This document shows, piece by piece, positions 14,610-34,675 of a stretch of 55,611 nt of DNA (the stretch's first letter is position 1; every line of letters begins with the position of its first letter). The notes under the pieces were generated by a model, which was not told where the DNA came from, did no database searches, and saw only the letters and a list, made by a program, of their open reading frames with translations. Source of the stretch: a virus; the IMG/VR virus record IMGVR_UViG_3300035670_000261, positions 1 through 55,611 of that record. One strand, 5' to 3'. A program made the position numbers and the translations under genes.

Positions 14610-15392
14610 TCACTCTGCTCCTTCGGGGTGGGTGTGGGTGGCGAGAGCAGCCGCACGCGCTTCAATAAACGCGATGATTGCCAGGGTCTCCTCAGCCTTA
14701 GGCGTGCCGGCATAACTCGCGGCGACGTGCGCGCGATATTCTTCTGGTGAGCAATTACGGCACCCCGCCACGATGCGCACGCCCTTGTCCGTGTCGTAAG
14801 CGATGAAATGGTAGGGATCGGTCACGCGCTGAACGGTAGTAACGAGGCGCTTGATTGTCACGCCGTCCAAGTCCGCGCCGGCCAAGTCCGCGCCGGCCAA
14901 GTCCGCGCGGGCCAAGTTCGCGCCGGCCAAGTCCGCGCCGGCCAAGTCCGCGCCGGCCAAGTCCGCGCCGAACAAGTTCGCGCCGTCCAAGTTCGCGCCG
15001 GCCAAGTTCGCGCCGGCCAAGTCCGCGCCGAACAAGTTCGCGCGGGCCAAGTTCGCGCCGTCCAAGTTCGCGCCGGCCAAGTTCGCGCCGGCCAAGTACG
15101 CGCGGGCCAAGTTCGCGCCGAACAAGTTCGCGCCGGCCAAGTGCGCGCCGGCCAAGTGCGCGCCGAACAAGTTCGCGCGGGCCAAGTACGCGCCGGCCAA
15201 GTTCGCGCCGAACAAGTTCGCGCCGGCCAAGTGCGCGCCGGCCAAGTCCGCGCCGGCCAAGTCCGCGCGGGCTTTCACCGCCCACCTCACCGCGAGGCCG
15301 AGCTTGAGCGGTGTCGAGGCGCCCTCTTCGCACTCAATATCAGCGGTGAACTGCACTGCGCCGCTAAAGCGGTTTCTGACCTCAAACTTCAC
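14610..15392 (-). CDS. Pentapeptide-repeat protein
   Basis: 260 residues from a GTG start preceded by GGGAGAGAG. Residues 1-42 form a short cap with pattern [11 protein letters not shown]...VQFTADI. Then 27 uninterrupted pentapeptides of type A-[DNHY]-L-[AFD]-[GR] follow, giving nearly seven coils of a right-handed quadrilateral beta helix. The C-terminal 80 residues are a globular or helical cap with two Cys ([12 protein letters not shown]). Pentapeptide proteins such as Qnr and MfpA mimic DNA and bind gyrase, but many have no known role. The gene is GC-rich compared with the rest of the arm, suggesting recent acquisition. Confidence 0.9.
14862..15266 (-). repeat. 27 x 15-bp tandem array coding the pentapeptides
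   Basis: Exactly 27 units of 15 bp with no spacer. On the coding strand the Ala (GCG) and Leu (TTG) codons are identical in all units. Variation is limited to the first base of the second codon (GAC, AAC, CAC, TAC), to the fourth codon (GCC, TTC, GAC) and to the first base of the fifth (GGC or CGC). The opposite strand is also open in three frames, which produces spurious long ORFs. Confidence 0.95.
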
Positions 15393-15519: not shown

Positions 15520-15807
15520 CTAGTGAGTGTCATTTCTCGTCTCTAATCGATTAAGCACTAGCGTCGCATAGCCGGCGATATCTCGCCAGTTATCCGTGTA
15601 ATCAGGGTCGCCGTTAATGATGCGCGATATCTTATCTAAGATAGTATCTAGTGCTTGCTTTTGATCTGGCTCCAACTCAAGCCAGTTTCCACTGGCCCTA
15701 AGTAACTCTTTCATACACATGGCTAGAACCGCATGACTGTAGAAATCTCCGTATCTCTCGCCACGCTCGCGTAAAACTTGGTCTACGGATTTGCCTTTAT
15801 CGCCCAC
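15520..15807 (-). CDS. DUF6378-like phage protein
   Basis: 95 residues from a GTG at 15807, with AGAAGAGA upstream. The sequence RYGDFYSHAVL...LEPDQKQALDTILDKISRIINGDP...DNWRDIAGYATLV matches the pattern of the DUF6378 family common in phages of Proteobacteria. These look all-alpha and have been compared with MazG-type nucleotide pyrophosphohydrolases, but I see no assured metal site here, so an enzymatic role is not claimed. It overlaps the end of the HTH mini-gene by 25 bp. Confidence 0.7.
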   Translation of the reverse strand: MGDKGKSVDQVLRERGERYGDFYSHAVLAMCMKELLRASGNWLELEPDQKQALDTILDKISRIINGDPDYTDNWRDIAGYATLVLNRLETRNDTH

Positions 15808-18848: not shown

Positions 18849-19139
18849 TTACGACTGCCGCTTTGCAACGGCAAGAAGCATATCAAGTCTATCTTTCGGA
18901 TCGGCTGCGATAACATCGGGAGTAGGCCATGAGTGTTCTGTGAGTATGGTCAGTAACTCACGCACACGGGTCTTAAGCTTTCGTTCCAAAGGCGCACGCG
19001 GGTAGCACCCGCGCTGCCAATTGTACCAAGTCTCCCTAGATACTCCTAAATACTTACAGATATCTTTAACAGTTAGGAGCATGTGTCGCCGCAGTGCTTC
19101 CACCTTACCGAAATCTATTCGGTTCGGTGTATTAGTCAT
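18849..19139 (-). CDS. Helix-turn-helix DNA-binding protein
   Basis: 96 residues. Segment MLLTVKDICKYLGVSRETWYNWQRG is a clear HTH, with the recognition helix around SRETWYNW, followed by Arg/Lys-rich helices. It overlaps the upstream SSB-like gene by 8 bp and precedes the primase-helicase by 52 bp. Likely a regulator of the early operon or an origin-binding protein; it is one of only two obvious sequence-specific DNA-binding proteins in the genome. Confidence 0.75.
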   Translation of the reverse strand: MTNTPNRIDFGKVEALRRHMLLTVKDICKYLGVSRETWYNWQRGCYPRAPLERKLKTRVRELLTILTEHSWPTPDVIAADPKDRLDMLLAVAKRQS

Positions 19140-26273: not shown

Positions 26274-26520
26274 CGTGTAGTTCCTTTATTTCACCGTCGA
26301 TAATAGCAAAGTACCTGACGCGATCAGGATTCTGCAGTGATACAATCTTCACATCGATATGACAGAAGAACCTATGCTTGATCGCATCAGGGTTATCTTG
26401 TACGAACCACATGCCGGCGCGCTTAGCAATATCGATTATGTTTTGGTCATACATAATGCTTAGCGGTGCTTTAGAGAAAGGCCACTCATAATTGGCTTTA
26501 GTCCATACCCAATAGCTCAT
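26254..26520 (-). CDS. Hypothetical 88-residue protein
   Basis: I choose the ATG at 26520, which overlaps the upstream stop as ATGA; an ATG four codons earlier would add a longer overlap. Sequence starts MSYWVWTKANYEWPFSKAPL and has alternating strands (HRFFCHIDVKIVSL, RVRYFAIIDGEI) and an acidic end. No family recognised. Confidence 0.6.
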   Translation of the reverse strand: MSYWVWTKANYEWPFSKAPLSIMYDQNIIDIAKRAGMWFVQDNPDAIKHRFFCHIDVKIVSLQNPDRVRYFAIIDGEIKELHDEKTID

Positions 26521-27008
26521 GGTGCTGCCCATTTAGGTGGCCCCCTTCTAGTCCATGTCGGATAGCGTATATCAGTCTCGATCCACTTATCGAGCATATA
26601 AAATCTATATGCCGCGCACACGTCATCCATCGATTTGTAAGGCGTGCAGTTGGCGAATTCAGTTTGCGCAGCGAGCGGGAAGTGCGGTTCAAGTTCCCAT
26701 CCCATTTCGGTGCATACTTCAATCACATCCCTGGACTTGTGCTGTTTGCCATAGCGGAAGCTGTACTCATCGCACAGCGCAACGCCATGCACGGCAAGCC
26801 ATATGTAATTGTGTGGGCTGGTCCTAGCCCATACGGTGCAGGGATGGTTCTTATGCGTCGGCTTGTAGATGCCGCTGAATGTGTAGTTGAAATGGTCGAC
26901 TGTAGTACATAGAAGCTGCGCAGTCTCAAGGATCATCTTGACTACGCGCTTGTCGTCAAGCGCTTGTGCTGACGCTATCGGACAGATCGTCGTTGCGAAT
27001 ATGTTCAT
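26517..27008 (-). CDS. Conserved phage protein, MNIF...DDKRVVKM family
   Basis: 163 residues from ATG 27008, which has GGAGGAG 6 nt upstream; an in-frame ATG at 27044 lacks such a site. The N-terminal pattern MNIFATTICPIASAQALDD-KRVVKMILETAQLLC, then THKNHPCTVWARTSPHNYIWL and CDEYSFRYGK, is a family widespread in marine and soil phages, including cyanophages, with no agreed function. The invariant His, Cys, Trp and Asp/Lys residues look enzyme-like. Confidence 0.75.
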   Translation of the reverse strand: MNIFATTICPIASAQALDDKRVVKMILETAQLLCTTVDHFNYTFSGIYKPTHKNHPCTVWARTSPHNYIWLAVHGVALCDEYSFRYGKQHKSRDVIEVCTEMGWELEPHFPLAAQTEFANCTPYKSMDDVCAAYRFYMLDKWIETDIRYPTWTRRGPPKWAAP

Positions 27009-27225
27009 CGTTCTCCTCCGAGACATCGAATAAGTTAAGCTCATTAGCTCCGAGCCTACCTTGGCCTACATACTGAATAACAACTTGGCTAGGGTCAAGC
27101 CCCGTCCAATCTTCCTTTGCCAGGATTATAGCCTCGCTCACGCTAGCTGCGACCACTTGCGTGATGAGTACATGACCATTGTATCTTCCTAGCACTACGT
27201 AGCTTGGCCTACGTATACGCGCCAT
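26956..27225 (-). CDS. Hypothetical 89-residue protein
   Basis: Strong AGGAGG 5-6 nt before the ATG; the SD overlaps the stop of the previous gene. The pattern SYVVLGRYNGHVLITQVVAA, then SVSEAIILAKEDW, then VVIQYVG is a beta-beta-alpha-beta arrangement, with a highly acidic Ser/Asp-rich tail. It overlaps the next gene by 53 bp. No family recognised. Confidence 0.6.
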   Translation of the reverse strand: MARIRRPSYVVLGRYNGHVLITQVVAASVSEAIILAKEDWTGLDPSQVVIQYVGQGRLGANELNLFDVSEENDEHIRNDDLSDSVSTSA

Positions 27226-27234
27226 AACAACCTC

Positions 27235-27489
27235 CTAGTGATCTACTCCGCACGAACCGACTATTTTGTAGCCGAGTTTGTTTATGATTGCTCGCACGTC
27301 ATCGCGTGCAGTGAACAATACGATTTGCGCCTGCTCCGCCGCTGCTCTTATAGAAGAGTAAGTATCAGCCAGTTCTGCATTATGGCCATTGTCTTCTATG
27401 TATTCATTAGCAGTCTCTATCATGGATATGAGGCAGTTATCAGCGGCATTCATAGCCGCCAGTAAATCCAACGCATACTTATCAGTCAT
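27235..27489 (-). CDS. Hypothetical 84-residue helical protein
   Basis: Mostly helical, acidic (ALDLLAAMNAADNCLISMIE, DTYSSIRAAAEQAQIVLFTA) with a C-terminal strand GYKIVGSCGV. Its start overlaps the hydrolase gene stop by 8 bp. No family recognised. Confidence 0.55.
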   Translation of the reverse strand: MTDKYALDLLAAMNAADNCLISMIETANEYIEDNGHNAELADTYSSIRAAAEQAQIVLFTARDDVRAIINKLGYKIVGSCGVDH

Positions 27490-27919
27490 CTTCTAGCTCC
27501 GTTATAGACATCGACTGCACACCTAGACCGCATGTAGTGCAGTACTTATTAGCGGCCTCAACTGCGGCGCGCGCATCAGCCCCGACAGCCAAAGCGCCAT
27601 AGGCAAAGTCCCTTCCGGTGCCTAATGCGATTGCATTAAAGCCGTGTTCTACAGGCCCGTCCGCAAGAGAGTACCTAGTCAGTCCGGTACTTTTGCGCAC
27701 AACAATAAATTGCCCCTGCGCGTATCCTTGTGGAAACTTGGAATAGTCAGCTCCGTTTTCGTACCATCTACGCAAGCCGGCAACTAAGCTAAGCGGGCCG
27801 ATGCCAGCGTAAATGGCGTTGTCCTTCTTCCATATCTTATTCACTGGAGTGAGCGTGCGGCCATCATTACTGGCGAGATCAGTAGCCAGCGTTACACCAT
27901 CCCAAACTAGAACGCTCAT
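27482..27919 (-). CDS. HslV/proteasome-like Ntn hydrolase with N-terminal Ser
   Basis: 145 residues. After removal of Met the chain would begin SVLVWDGVTLATD, aligning with the TTIVSVRRNG start of HslV, so Ser would replace the Thr nucleophile. D13 and K27 (VNKIW) match the HslV Asp17/Lys33 positions. YAGIGPLSLV corresponds to the fold's next Gly-rich strand, and AIALGTGRDFAYGAL to the IAIGSGGPYAQAAA segment of HslV. No HslU-type ATPase is present, but a MoxR ATPase lies in the same operon. Related stand-alone phage proteins exist; substrate is unknown. Confidence 0.65.
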   Translation of the reverse strand: MSVLVWDGVTLATDLASNDGRTLTPVNKIWKKDNAIYAGIGPLSLVAGLRRWYENGADYSKFPQGYAQGQFIVVRKSTGLTRYSLADGPVEHGFNAIALGTGRDFAYGALAVGADARAAVEAANKYCTTCGLGVQSMSITELEDD

Positions 27920-28574: not shown

Positions 28575-29720
28575 TTACATCTTAACGACTTCGCCCCACG
28601 GGGCGTTTGTGCACAGGTTGCTAACCCACAATACGGGATAGTCAGGCTGTTGGCCAAAGTCTGCGCAATCAAGATCAGTGATGACAACGCAACAAGCCGG
28701 GTCGATTTCCCGCTTGGTTATCTCTGCAAAGACAGGTGAAAACGCAGTACCGCCACCGCCTTTAGGTTCCAGCACAACAGGCTGGTCAGTGCCAAATGTC
28801 TCGTATCCACAGACAGCGTGGTCAAAATAGATCACATGAATTTTGGTTGGCTTCATCTCCTCTTGTAGCGACTGCGCCTCCGCTTGGAAAACAGCTAGAA
28901 CCTTGTCATCGATAGAGCCAGAGCAGTCCACAGCGTAGACCATCTCACCCATAACCTCGCCATATGATGACGGCATGATGAGCGATGAGCCAGCAAAGCG
29001 ACGATTGGGCCGAGCGTATGTCCGGTTAGTCATGCCCTTAGCTCTCACAACAAACCGAGCCAGCACCTCACGCCAGTCAACCACGGGATCGAGCGCTTGC
29101 TCGACTAGCCTTGCCACGCCTTGGCTTAGCTGCCCTGCACCACGCGCCGCCGCAGCTGCATTAGCGATCTTCTCCTTAATCCGCGCTTCGATCTCGGCTT
29201 GCTTGGCCTGATCGTTAGCCGTACCGGGCGCATCTTGCATGTTATCAAGCGAGCCTTGTCCATTGCCTGAACCCGGCGCGCTTGCTTGGTCCCCTCGCTG
29301 GCATAGCAGATCATAAATCTTATCGGCCATGCCCTGACCTTGGCTAAACAAGTTAGCGTCGAGCATTCCACCAGCTATGAACTTGCCGACTTTGTCGTTT
29401 ACCAAGTGCTGGTTAATCACATAGTCGCACGCTACGTTCCACAGCCACGGGTCACGACCATTGCGCCGCAATATGTGCAGAAACGCAACGTGCATTACCT
29501 CGTGCGCCGTGAGAAATAACAGCTCATCATCGTCAAGCTCATCGACAAAACTAGGGTGGTAGGCAACTTTGAACCCATCCGTCTGCGCTGTAGGCGGATC
29601 GATTGTCTCATCGATAACGAAGTCCATATCGAGACCCAGCACGCCAATAAACGAGTGATCTAATATGAGCTTAGTCTTGACAGCGCTCACACGCCGCAAT
29701 CGTTTGTCAAAATCCGTCAT
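28575..29720 (-). CDS. DUF2201 metallopeptidase-like plus VWA protein
   Basis: 381 residues. The N-terminal domain has H73EVMH77 and the RDPWLWNVACDYVINQHL block that typify DUF2201 putative metallopeptidases. Residues 140-190 are a Gln/Gly/Ala linker. The C-terminal domain has D265CSGS269, a MIDAS metal site of von Willebrand A-like domains, and the GGGGTAFSPVF that completes it. Such proteins partner with MoxR ATPases as chaperone or remodelling systems. The genes for DUF3150-like and MoxR proteins are immediately upstream in the operon. Confidence 0.85.
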   Translation of the reverse strand: MTDFDKRLRRVSAVKTKLILDHSFIGVLGLDMDFVIDETIDPPTAQTDGFKVAYHPSFVDELDDDELLFLTAHEVMHVAFLHILRRNGRDPWLWNVACDYVINQHLVNDKVGKFIAGGMLDANLFSQGQGMADKIYDLLCQRGDQASAPGSGNGQGSLDNMQDAPGTANDQAKQAEIEARIKEKIANAAAAARGAGQLSQGVARLVEQALDPVVDWREVLARFVVRAKGMTNRTYARPNRRFAGSSLIMPSSYGEVMGEMVYAVDCSGSIDDKVLAVFQAEAQSLQEEMKPTKIHVIYFDHAVCGYETFGTDQPVVLEPKGGGGTAFSPVFAEITKREIDPACCVVITDLDCADFGQQPDYPVLWVSNLCTNAPWGEVVKM

Positions 29721-30571
29721 TAGAAATACCCCTGCATTTCAGCCATGATCTTAGCCGCTTCATCCGCAACCTCTTGCCGATAGTCGGGATCAAGCCGCAG
29801 GTTATCAGGGTGACAAGCCGCAATGGCTTGCTCGACACGAACGCGCATCGCTTCGAGATCAGGGTCGTCATTGAAGTTCATACGCTTAAGCAAATCGCAT
29901 TGCTCTTGTACATTCTCGATAAGCGAGTCACGGAAAATAGCCGCCGGATCGACAAGCTTCTCCTGTACTTTCTGCACCTTGTCGTGCAGCTTGCTCCAGA
30001 GGTCTTGCATTGCGATGCGAGACGCGTGTTGCACTCGCTCTTCGATGTCTTGACGAATGCCAGCGACAATGTCGTCGCCAAGCTGCACACGGAAGTCAGT
30101 AGCCGGGACCGGGAAAACCGCCAAGTCGATATAAAACTTATCCCGAATAGCCTCAGCGGGTGGGTAGTCACTGACGTTGAACATCGGACCAAGCGACGCT
30201 TGCGCTTGGCTCACAAGCTGCGGATATGCAGATACGAACGAGTCAACAAGTTGCCACCATTCCGAAGAATGCTTGCGAAACTGCGCCATGAATCCAAGAT
30301 AGTTCTTAGTAGAGAGAATGTTGGTTCCTTCAATGCCCCACGGCGAAGTGTTCTTATAGAAGTCAGCACGAATGGACGTAGTCTTGGCCTGAATGCGCTT
30401 AAGCGCATCGGTAGCAGGCAACAATGCCTTGTTGTAACGTCCGACACTAACGTCAGTGCGATAGTCAATAGCGACCTTCTCGCTCACACTGCGGTCGAAC
30501 TTGCGTCCTACCCATTGTGAAATATTGAGCTGTACTAGCAGCGCGCGATCAGATAATTTAGTTGTAGTCAT
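29720..30571 (-). CDS. DUF3150-like partner protein
   Basis: 283 residues, mainly helical, starting after AAGGAG (8 nt). Features: LNISQWVGRKFDRSVSEKVA at the start, a helical body with DFRVQLGDDI, and a C-terminal coiled coil (VRVEQAIAACHPDNLRLD). Length and position between MoxR and a VWA/metallopeptidase fit the DUF3150 type proteins seen in phage MoxR operons; sequence match by eye is moderate. Stop and next start overlap as TAATG. Confidence 0.5.
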   Translation of the reverse strand: MTTTKLSDRALLVQLNISQWVGRKFDRSVSEKVAIDYRTDVSVGRYNKALLPATDALKRIQAKTTSIRADFYKNTSPWGIEGTNILSTKNYLGFMAQFRKHSSEWWQLVDSFVSAYPQLVSQAQASLGPMFNVSDYPPAEAIRDKFYIDLAVFPVPATDFRVQLGDDIVAGIRQDIEERVQHASRIAMQDLWSKLHDKVQKVQEKLVDPAAIFRDSLIENVQEQCDLLKRMNFNDDPDLEAMRVRVEQAIAACHPDNLRLDPDYRQEVADEAAKIMAEMQGYF

Positions 30572-30614
30572 AGCTACTCTCCTTACTCCAAAGGTTTATT
30601 GAATGCGCTTGTTC

Positions 30615-30833
30615 TTATCTTGATAGCACGGCATCGCCAGCAATGACAAGAAACGCAAAAGATACGAACGACAGCATCGTAAGTTTAAACAGGTCAAGGA
30701 TCATGCTTGGTTCGTATTGTTTGTAGTTTTTAGCAGCGAACCCGCTAAGAAACATAAGCAGAGCGCAGAGCGCAAAGGCTGCAGTTTGTAGTGCGATCAA
30801 AACTGTGATCGTGAAAATACCAGTAATACCCAT
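30615..30833 (-). CDS. Two-helix membrane protein in MoxR operon
   Basis: 72 residues with two hydrophobic stretches, about 7-33 (FTITVLIALQTAAFALCALL) and 47-67 (LTMLSFVSFAFLVIAGDAVL), separated by a short polar loop with Lys and Tyr. The ATG overlaps the MoxR stop as TAATG, so it is made with the ATPase and could anchor or receive that complex at the inner membrane. It is unlike the holin of the lysis block and lies in the early arm. Confidence 0.6.
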   Translation of the reverse strand: MGITGIFTITVLIALQTAAFALCALLMFLSGFAAKNYKQYEPSMILDLFKLTMLSFVSFAFLVIAGDAVLSR

Positions 30834-31810
30834 TAGGAAAGAACTCCTTGGTTCTCAGTTGCGAACTCGATAAAAGCTTGCGTCTCACACAATGAATCGT
30901 CTCGCTTGATTGCGAGGGTCATCAGAAGCGTAGTGAATTCCAAAGGAAGACGCTTAGCGTAGCGATACACACGGTCCATGTTAGTCTTAGTCGCACGGTG
31001 CGCCAGAGCCGTTGTCACAGCATAGCGCAGCGCAGGCTCATCCGGAACGTCCATGGTATCTGGGTTAAGTAGAATAGCGTCGATGCTTGGCCGCTTTTTA
31101 TACGTCTTGATGAAGTCGGTGAACAGTATCGCCGCTTTCTCACCAATAGTGCCTTTGAAAGTTTCGAAATAGGCATCGTCAGTGATACCGCTCTTGATAA
31201 GCGTATCGACCATACCCCACGAACGAGCCGTTGGATTTACATCATTCTTGGGATCATAGGCTTGTAAGTAGTTAGGTTGAAAGCGACAGAACGCAACGAC
31301 GACAGGATCTACACCGCTTCGAAGCGCCCAAAGGCTCCAATCATCAACCGAAAAGTCATAGTCAACCATGACCATACGATTAGCGACGTGACCCAGTACA
31401 CGATTAGCCCCGGCCCTATCGACGACACGATTACTAGTAAAACAAAGCGACCAATCTTTAGGAAGCGCATGGCCATGTAACTCTCGCTCCAGCATGAGGT
31501 GTGCGGATAGTTTTTGAATGTCTGTGTTGGCTTGACCAAAGTCGTCGAAGATAATCACACCCTTGGACTCAGGGTCAGTAGGCCACCAATACGGCACGCT
31601 ATGACGAATAGCGCCGTCGACAATGGCAGGAATGCCCATGTCTTCCACAAGCATAGAGCCGCCGTGCAGCAGCACGGTGTCATACTTCATAGCGGATATG
31701 GATTGCTTCAATACGGATGTCTTGCCGCATCCCGGCGGACCCATAAGCATGAATGGCACGCGACTAGCGACCATGTTAGGGATGATCTCAAATAATTGTT
31801 TAGCTCTCAT
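30833..31810 (-). CDS. MoxR-family AAA+ ATPase
   Basis: 325 residues from the ATG at 31810, chosen because an AAAGGA lies about 10 nt upstream; in-frame ATGs at 31822 and 31858 lie deeper in the preceding gene. Walker A GPPGCGKT, Walker B VIIFDDFG, sensor 1 CFTSN and an Arg-containing NPTARSW segment are all visible. MoxR ATPases load or remodel proteins through VWA partners; the VWA/metallopeptidase gene is two genes downstream. Confidence 0.88.
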   Translation of the reverse strand: MRAKQLFEIIPNMVASRVPFMLMGPPGCGKTSVLKQSISAMKYDTVLLHGGSMLVEDMGIPAIVDGAIRHSVPYWWPTDPESKGVIIFDDFGQANTDIQKLSAHLMLERELHGHALPKDWSLCFTSNRVVDRAGANRVLGHVANRMVMVDYDFSVDDWSLWALRSGVDPVVVAFCRFQPNYLQAYDPKNDVNPTARSWGMVDTLIKSGITDDAYFETFKGTIGEKAAILFTDFIKTYKKRPSIDAILLNPDTMDVPDEPALRYAVTTALAHRATKTNMDRVYRYAKRLPLEFTTLLMTLAIKRDDSLCETQAFIEFATENQGVLS

Positions 31811-31982
31811 TGGATTGTCCATCCTTTCTTTTGCGCGTTTTTTCCAAAGCAACGCCAATTATGGTTTGCCCTACAGCCGTAAAGAACAGGCCGATCAGGG
31901 ATAGTAATATTGCATATAACTCCCATTCTGTGTGGCTTAGTGACCACGTCCAATCGGAGTATATCAGGAGCGCTTCCACCAT
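31800..31982 (-). CDS. Single-pass membrane protein
   Basis: 60 residues. Polar N-terminus with Trp residues (YSDWTWSLSHTEWE), hydrophobic helix LYAILLSLIGLFFTAVGQTI, and a basic C-terminal tail (EKTRKRKDGQSNES). By the positive-inside rule the tail is cytoplasmic. Overlaps the MoxR start by 11 bp. One of four small membrane proteins in the operon. No family recognised. Confidence 0.6.
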   Translation of the reverse strand: MVEALLIYSDWTWSLSHTEWELYAILLSLIGLFFTAVGQTIIGVALEKTRKRKDGQSNES

Positions 31983-32559: not shown

Positions 32560-32676
32560 GCTAGGCCCTTATCCAAGGGTTGAGAAAACCAGCGAGTCGT
32601 CGCCGAAGCGAGGGGCCGGTGTCGAAGGGCCGAAGCCCGACGACCCATCCAGCTTGACACGGCTCCGGTCGAAAGT

Positions 32677-32701
32677 CAAGAACCAGCGGAGCTGGTTCTT
32701 G
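32677..32701. promoter_or_regulatory. 11-bp inverted repeat with 3-bp loop
   Basis: CAAGAACCAGC, gga, GCTGGTTCTTG: perfect 11-bp arms. No T-run follows on either strand, so it is not a typical intrinsic terminator. It lies 118 bp upstream of the first gene of the leftward operon and next to a TTGACACGG copy. Could be an operator, a cruciform or a leader RNA hairpin. Confidence 0.7.
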
Positions 32702-32744
32702 GAGATACGTAGGCGTAATGCGTACGCGTAATGGCTCCAGGGGA

Positions 32745-32817
32745 GGGTGTAAAGGAGGGAAAGTGTAAAGCGCGGGTGTAAAGGAGGGGGAGTGTAAAGC
32801 GCGGGTGTAAAGGAGCT
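32745..32817. repeat. 29-bp tandem repeat with GTGTAAAG
   Basis: Two full units (32745-32773 and 32774-32802) plus a partial third to about 32817. Each unit contains GTGTAAAGGA and GTGTAAAGCG, so the word GTGTAAAG appears five times at 13-16 bp spacing. A sixth copy lies at 33236. The word differs from the main iteron GTGTCAAG by one base, suggesting a second, related binding site class. Confidence 0.8.
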
Positions 32818-33149
32818 TGTGGGGGGTCTTGTTAACCTTTTTTGTGGTATAGGGCTAAGAAACTTGACACGGTTCGATTTTGTGTCAAGCAAAAGTAGAT
32901 AGTTTGACTAGTGAGGCGTGTCAAGATGTCAAGGATAAGCCATTGATTTTATTGGGACTATATAAAAACGCTAGTTAGTTAGGGATTTTTTTGTGAAAAG
33001 CGTTTGGGAGTTTTTCGGTTTGGGCGTTAACTATTAGGCTTTGGGGGGCTGTAGTTCGCGTTTTTGGAGAAGCGGATTCTAGTCTTAGGAGAAAAAATTT
33101 TTTGCTTAAAAGGGTATATGAGTTATTTTTGGATTTTGGGCCTATTTTA

Positions 33150-33167
33150 TCTAGTACTAGTACTAGA
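33150..33167. promoter_or_regulatory. 18-bp perfect palindrome
   Basis: TCTAGTACTAGTACTAGA equals its own complement and is built from overlapping CTAGTA/TACTAG steps. It sits in the most AT-rich part of the control region. A dimeric regulator site is plausible, but a simple repeat by chance cannot be excluded. Confidence 0.55.
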
Positions 33168-33437
33168 CACTCAATATAATATAATAAAATTCCCAGTATT
33201 TTCAAGGCTTCTGGACTTTTGCTTGACACTGGTCCGTGTAAAGGAATGCTAGTTAAAACCCGCTTTTCGTGTCAAGGAGAAAAGTAGATAGTTGACACGA
33301 TTTGGCGTTTTTTTGACTAGTTGACACGATTTTTGACTAGTTATTTCGTGGTTGACACGCTATATTATGGCAGAAATAAGGCAAGATCGCTAGAAATAAG
33401 GCAGCTTTGCCACAATTTTCGTGTCAAGATGTCAAGC

Positions 33438-33530
33438 TGTCAAGCAGCATTGTGTCAAGATGTCAAGCAATTAGGTCCGCATCGCGAGTCGATAAATGTC
33501 AAGCAGCATTGTGTCAAGGTGTCAAGCAAT
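33438..33530. repeat. Duplicated 34-bp iteron module
   Basis: 33438-33471 and 33497-33530 are identical except for one base (A/G at the 23rd position). Each holds three TGTCAAG words joined by CAGCATTG. The period is 59 bp, close to a whole number of helical turns at 10.5 bp (5.6), which is not exact phasing. Suggests growth of the array by duplication. Confidence 0.85.
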
Positions 33531-33670
33531 AGTGTGTCAAGCTATGACCATTAAGGGCCTAGCATTAGCGCGCACGATAAGCCTGGACCCCCCGACCAAT
33601 GGTTTTTACTCTACCCTAGAAACGCGCGCAGCTTGGACCATACGCTTGACGCGCGCGGTGCTGCGCAAAT

Positions 33671-33697
33671 AAAAAGGCGGGGCCGAAACCCCGCCTA
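33671..33697 (-). terminator. Intrinsic terminator, leftward
   Basis: Read leftward: stem GGCGGGG / CCCCGCC (extended by one A-T pair), 6-nt loop, then TTTTT. It lies just after the stop of the 61-residue membrane gene (33704-33889), so this short leftward unit is closed before the repeat region. Confidence 0.85.
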
Positions 33698-33703
33698 GTA
33701 CCT

Positions 33704-34334: not shown

Positions 34335-34520
34335 GAGATTCTCCAATCTCTATTCAGACCTCGGCGTCCCGGTTTGTGAAGGAACAACGGTTTCCCGTAT
34401 CGCCCGTCAGCGACACACACAACATAGCGACATTGACGGGAATGTAAAGCGTCCAAAAGATAAATCGCCATATCTTTAGATACGCAATTCCGCATTTATG
34501 TAATGTAGAATACAGTACGA

Positions 34521-34543
34521 ATGTAGCGTAGTGTACGCTACAT
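34521..34543. promoter_or_regulatory. 10-bp inverted repeat, candidate operator
   Basis: ATGTAGCGTA, gtg, TACGCTACAT: perfect arms of 10 bp. No T-run on either side. Located midway between the divergent genes, a natural place for a dimeric regulator to act on both directions. Confidence 0.65.
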
Positions 34544-34554
34544 AAGCCTGGGCC

Positions 34555-34573
34555 TGGGGGGGCCTCCCCCCCA
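34555..34573. other. G7/C7 hairpin
   Basis: TGGGGGGG, CCT, CCCCCCCA: eight-pair stem of almost pure G and C. It lacks a T-run in either direction. It could block transcription between the two arms or pause polymerase. Confidence 0.55.
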
Positions 34574-34675
34574 CATGACCACGAAGCCGACACCGCCCCC
34601 CGTGATATCTAAACCCCACATAACACAGCCCCAAAAAACCAAAGTTAACAAAAATTAATAATCCGCACCTAAAAA

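Follow-up and report, generated by a model that had tools for sequence, protein, structure and literature searches.

A TGTMAAGT repeat array as a candidate replication origin and early control region of a podovirus-like phage

SaPI Rep recognises iterons via its C-terminal domain, and SCCmec Cch, which carries DUF927, is related to SaPIBov1 Rep (PMC7581432). Likewise, P4 alpha binds the repeats of its origin via a winged helix (PMC4234260), and the initiators of iteron plasmids bind iterons as monomers, their dimers interacting with DNA too (PMC4980987).

Here, I consider a repeat array in the IMG/VR record IMGVR_UViG_3300035670_000261, the whole of which (55,611 bp) was analysed and is called the window below. 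With a probability of roughly 0.55, the region that holds the array is an iteron-type replication origin fused with an early promoter/operator region; this reading is favoured because it accounts jointly for the repeats, the AT minimum, the position, the promoters and the encoded initiator.

The replication arm of the genome runs leftward over 14.6-32.5 kb and encodes the PrimPol-DUF927 helicase, an HTH protein, an SNF2 helicase, PolA, an exonuclease and an AAA/VWA pair; the structural genes run rightward, starting at 34.7 kb. By TerL, the named relatives are Pseudomonas phage Rollin (44%) and the TM3_14A group of Rhizobium phages (41%). A TerL relative is encoded in 600 or more IMG/VR stretches, of which the top 80 reach 75-79% identity over the best segment, and no literature description of this podovirus-like clade was found. 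In the phage collection, no match was returned for the array region by a distant DNA search or for the right arm by a near DNA search; a search of IMG/VR for relatives of the AAA ATPase came back empty, probably owing to the query's own patterns, and the searches for tRNAs and for Rfam families returned none. A family match to pyrimidine dimer DNA glycosylase lies at 26517-27044 (minus strand, E 4e-8), and the early operon also encodes, at 27482-27919 and 28575-31858 (both minus), a protein matching the HslV-like peptidase family and an AAA ATPase together with its VWA/metallopeptidase partner. Among the relatives, TerL of L218, L212 and L217 (record G058) matches separately over residues 1-32 and 31-465 within an open frame of 787 aa, which points to an in-frame, intein-like insert.

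The core of the array is the word TGTCAA, present in 19 copies (13+/6-) within 32560-33700 and in 17 others in the remaining 54 kb. An earlier note on this DNA had counted some 19 copies of the 8-mer in these orientations; the dense cluster does lie where the note had put it, yet 19 is the tally of the core, since TGTCAAG occurs 16 times (13+, 3-) and the exact GTGTCAAG 11 times (8+, 3-) in the same interval. Six copies of GTGTAAAG, five of them at 32747-32812, are absent from that account of the array. The excess of the word, for which the note had proposed counting against shuffled sequence, is plain: over the entire window GTGTCAAG is found 13 times (11 of them inside 1.1 kb) against 1.34 expected from whole-window shuffles, and in 1000 dinucleotide shuffles of 32.56-33.70 kb the maxima stayed far below the counts, at 4 for TGTCAA, 2 for TGTCAAG, 1 for GTGTCAAG and 2 for GTGTAAAG. 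Nor does the array word recur at similar density elsewhere, as the note had considered it might. The sole larger 8-mer cluster in the window, at 14.2-15.0 kb, is coding; it is accounted for by a pentapeptide-repeat protein (14613-15392, minus strand) with ADLAGANL repeats.

Copies joined head to tail without spacer are seen as 8-bp steps at four places (32919/32927, 33422/33430/33438, 33453/33461 and 33512/33520); others follow at 15-bp steps, so that a 23-bp unit recurs. The ORFs inside the region have no PHROGs match, consistent with the gene-free gap described previously, and the array consists of several short direct repeats in non-coding DNA, as is expected of an iteron-type origin. The features are listed in Table 1.

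Table 1. Positions of the repeats, promoters and proteins discussed in the text
Feature	Position	Strand	Remark
PrimPol-DUF927 helicase, 942 aa	15968..18796	-	proposed initiator
Small conserved HTH protein	18849..19139	-	beside primase gene; alternative candidate binder
Gene-free control region (putative origin and early operator)	32560..33703	.	ORFs without PHROGs match; repeat/AT-rich gap kept in relatives
PL, predicted promoter heading the leftward replication operon (TTGACT-N17-CAAGCT)	32651..32679	-	conserved sigma70-type, left edge of array
Motif A copy CTTGACA	32653..32659	-	overlaps -10 of PL
Five GTGTAAAG variants	32747..32812	+	at 32747, 32763, 32776, 32792, 32805; steps alternate 16/13 bp
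Four TGTCAAG	32863..32933	.	32863(-), 32883, 32919, 32927(+)
Motif B copy AAAAGTAGATAGTT	32891..32904	+	
AT-rich block, candidate DNA unwinding element	33051..33230	.	contains genome GC minimum
Motif A copies and one GTGTAAAG	33222..33276	.	motif A 33222(-), 33270(+); GTGTAAAG 33236(+)
Motif B copy AAAAGTAGATAGTT	33280..33293	+	
Three GTTGACAC copies	33291..33358	-	at 33291, 33320, 33351
Densest cluster, nine direct TGTCAAG	33422..33541	+	steps 8, 15 and 36 bp
Terminator-like hairpin	33675..33696	-	closes small minus-strand genes right of array
Putative second leftward promoter, TTTACA-N16-TATGTT	34421..34448	-	from scan
Element C counterpart: T-run, GGTTTA, G-run, C-run	34525..34645	-	starts with motif A copy in relatives

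Inside the array lies the 100-bp segment of lowest GC content in the genome (33091-33190, 24% against 52% for the genome), which bears out the AT-rich block of the earlier note; an AT-rich element adjoining the repeats is thus present, as a candidate for unwinding. The note had also proposed looking for a change of GC skew at about 33 kb; the cumulative skew does have a minimum near 31-32 kb, but this minimum is inseparable from the change of gene orientation, so that the skew is uninformative on the origin. There is no exact match to the DnaA box TTATMCACA within the window, which leaves a DnaA-dependent origin unsupported.

In about 45 relatives with TerL about 77% identical, degenerate TGTMAAGT copies occupy the same AT-rich gap, together with a second repeat family of tandem 9-mers, TAGATWRTT. 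Iterated position matrices gave [GA]TGTMAAGTT for motif A and TAGATWRTT, in tandem with a 9-bp period, for motif B. Over 46 loci, motif A (ACTTKAC/CTTKACA type) has a density of 4.8/kb in the AT-richest gap upstream of terL versus 1.0/kb outside, and motif B of 4.0/kb versus 0.3/kb, contrasts which may partly reflect composition, for the gap was chosen by its AT content; the shuffle-controlled counts for the window are independent of that choice. The window has the most copies of motif A and only two exact copies of motif B, which is prominent in the relatives, and the near absence of the latter here speaks against the origin reading. The nearest array found in the same clade belongs to L218, a record of 51 kb in which numerous ACTTGACAC/GTGTMAAGTTA units run in either direction. 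In favour of the origin reading, the gap ahead of the late genes of the more distant Rollin also contains an AT-rich region, with repeat words of another kind. The corresponding region of Rhizobium phage TM3_14A is AT-rich, but with no comparable iteron set.

Arrays of the TGTCAAG-type word also occur in unrelated phages. The control word GAACTGT forms arrays as well (two-orientation arrays: at least 4 versus at least 11, in 120 loci each), and the array word is therefore not to be taken as universal. Unrelated phages L205, L238-L240 and L208 combine TGTCAAG arrays in non-coding DNA with PrimPol-helicases, one of them with DUF3987; a primase search with query A1, run without a positive control, found none in 12 array-bearing records of unrelated phages. 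At 9150-11400 of L288, tandem TTGACA copies lie directly upstream of a TATATT -10, like a -35 region duplicated as an operator.

The earlier note had placed the array at the head of the replication operon, and the conserved promoter PL at its left edge agrees with that position: many relatives have a counterpart at this edge, with ACTTGACA as the -35 and a -10-like hexamer 17 bp on. The second leftward promoter of the window is likely the counterpart of a conserved right-hand promoter, which in 26 relatives consists of a motif copy (mostly ACTTGACA) followed in 19 of them by NANNNT at exactly 17 bp; other spacings from 10 to 22 bp account for 0-3 cases each, and there are 10 at 23 bp and 8 at 25 bp. 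Both flanking promoters of the relatives thus use a motif A copy as their -35 box.

The S. meliloti sigma70 consensus is CTTGAC-N17-CTATAT, CTTGAC being the -35 of Sinorhizobium promoters (PMC2873474), and a likeness of the phage promoters to it would suit an alphaproteobacterial host, although this is a guess only. Because two promoters of the relatives use the CTTGAC-type box, the array could itself be taken for host sigma70 -35 boxes, that is, for many promoters or for a decoy recruiting polymerase. Over 324 array sites, however, no clear peak of a -10 hexamer appears about 17 bp after the TTKACA copies, which argues against a promoter battery; TTTACA variants dominate the boxes of the arrays, whereas the promoters have mostly TTGACA, and two to three sites only of the window have a passable -10. 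A battery or decoy of this kind is improbable.

The spacer of the right-hand promoter often contains an inverted motif copy, giving the inverted pair ACTTGACA-N4-TGTCAAGT. Upstream of this promoter, in L077, L084, L198 and others, lies an element C of about 100 bp, composed of motif A, a T-run, GGTTTACT, a G-run and a C-run, which could be a promoter, a leader or a packaging site; its motif A is an isolated perfect copy. Such isolated sites and the inverted pair suit a transcription regulator equally well as, or better than, initiator-bound iterons. They lend weight, together with the motif copies serving as -35 boxes of both leftward promoters, to a possible though doubtful alternative, in which the array is mainly a transcriptional operator whose TGTMAAGT half-sites are bound by the HTH protein at 18849-19139, blocking the early -35 boxes and so switching early transcription, while any origin there would use other elements. 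The earlier note had named two HTH proteins as candidate binders; that at 18849 is kept near 94 of the 98 primase loci, and is consistent with such a role, but that at 15783 occurs in the window only, being absent from all the relatives' loci examined, and is rejected as a general binder. What weighs against an operator is the array itself, as some 19 mostly direct copies at 8- and 15-bp steps around the AT minimum are far above the need of two promoters; moreover, the encoded SaPI Rep-like initiator requires an origin.

The proposed initiator is related to known iteron-binding initiators. A PDB sequence search with the PrimPol-DUF927 protein retrieved two helicases, at E 9e-7 (5dgk, Cch) and E 1e-6 (8tch), and Foldseek with its model retrieved 5dgk at E 2e-16. 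VIA-align gave Z 25.9 to SCCmec Cch and Z 23.8 to SaPIBov1 Rep, with an rmsd of 11-12 A over the two-domain span, and Z 18.5 to the S-2L PrimPol for the AEP primase part. The structural match to Rep/Cch covers residues ~345-937, the alignment to 8tch extending to model residue 937, and a separate model of the last 253 residues gave Z 7.7-7.8 to Cch and Rep. Residues ~795-930 bear a weak resemblance to a winged helix (Z 4-5; model mean pLDDT 72), and the model tentatively suggests a C-terminal winged helix; the low score of the match (Z <5) at such a pLDDT counts against the origin reading.

In the origin and early-operator reading, a phage protein would bind the TGTMAAGT repeats (GTGTCAAG in this genome) cooperatively and, once bound, would open the adjoining AT-rich block, whereupon the PrimPol-DUF927 helicase would load, unwind and prime. 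By analogy with SaPI Rep, the binder would most likely be the C-terminal domain of the PrimPol-helicase and next likely the conserved HTH protein 18849, whose equal availability counts against the initiator in this role; the distance of 14 kb between the primase gene and the array, which do not adjoin, counts against the origin itself. Since the early promoters of relatives have copies of this site as their -35 boxes, its occupation would silence them as well, a form of autoregulation; dimers of iteron-plasmid initiators repress their own promoters via inverted sites. The origin or master control proposed by the earlier note draws support from the position and repeats kept in about 45 relatives, the AT minimum, two conserved early promoters and the Rep-like PrimPol-helicase.

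Still more tentatively, in a widespread podovirus-like clade one degenerate 8-bp site may serve both as the iteron of a PrimPol-DUF927 origin and as the -35 box/operator of early promoters, in which case origin firing and early-gene shut-off would be one binding event, and early transcription and replication would be linked by a simple switch. To sum up, the locus provides a concrete and testable map of origin and control for a large group of uncultivated phages (terminase relatives are encoded in 600 or more IMG/VR stretches), and connects the replication system of a phage with the initiators SaPI Rep and SCCmec Cch.

P4 alpha, like the protein of this virus, unites primase and helicase in one polypeptide; it reads short origin repeats by a winged helix, as the protein of this virus may do. 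In P4 the primase is a Toprim-type enzyme, and the repeat word and the helicase family differ. The stoperator of mycobacteriophage L5 has a TGTCAAG core, as found here, and an upstream half, which is missing here; the sites of this array are packed in one gap, not dispersed over the genome, and have no long asymmetric consensus. An array of stoperator-like repressor sites, to which the binding of an L5-type repressor as a monomer to an asymmetric site (PMC9283540) would lend some sense, is very improbable. Iteron plasmids, too, combine short repeats in tandem with a neighbouring AT-rich DUE and with related sites at promoters, but plasmid Reps are not PrimPol-helicases, and the repeats of this virus are 8 bp long, degenerate and in both orientations. 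SaPIBov1 Rep and SCCmec Cch share with this virus a DUF927-type initiator helicase, to which an AEP primase is fused N-terminally here. SaPI origins have short repeats bound by a C-terminal domain and lie directly downstream of rep, whereas the present array, at 32.6-33.5 kb, is upstream of the operon. By analogy, the array would work like the origins of SaPI, P4 and iteron plasmids.
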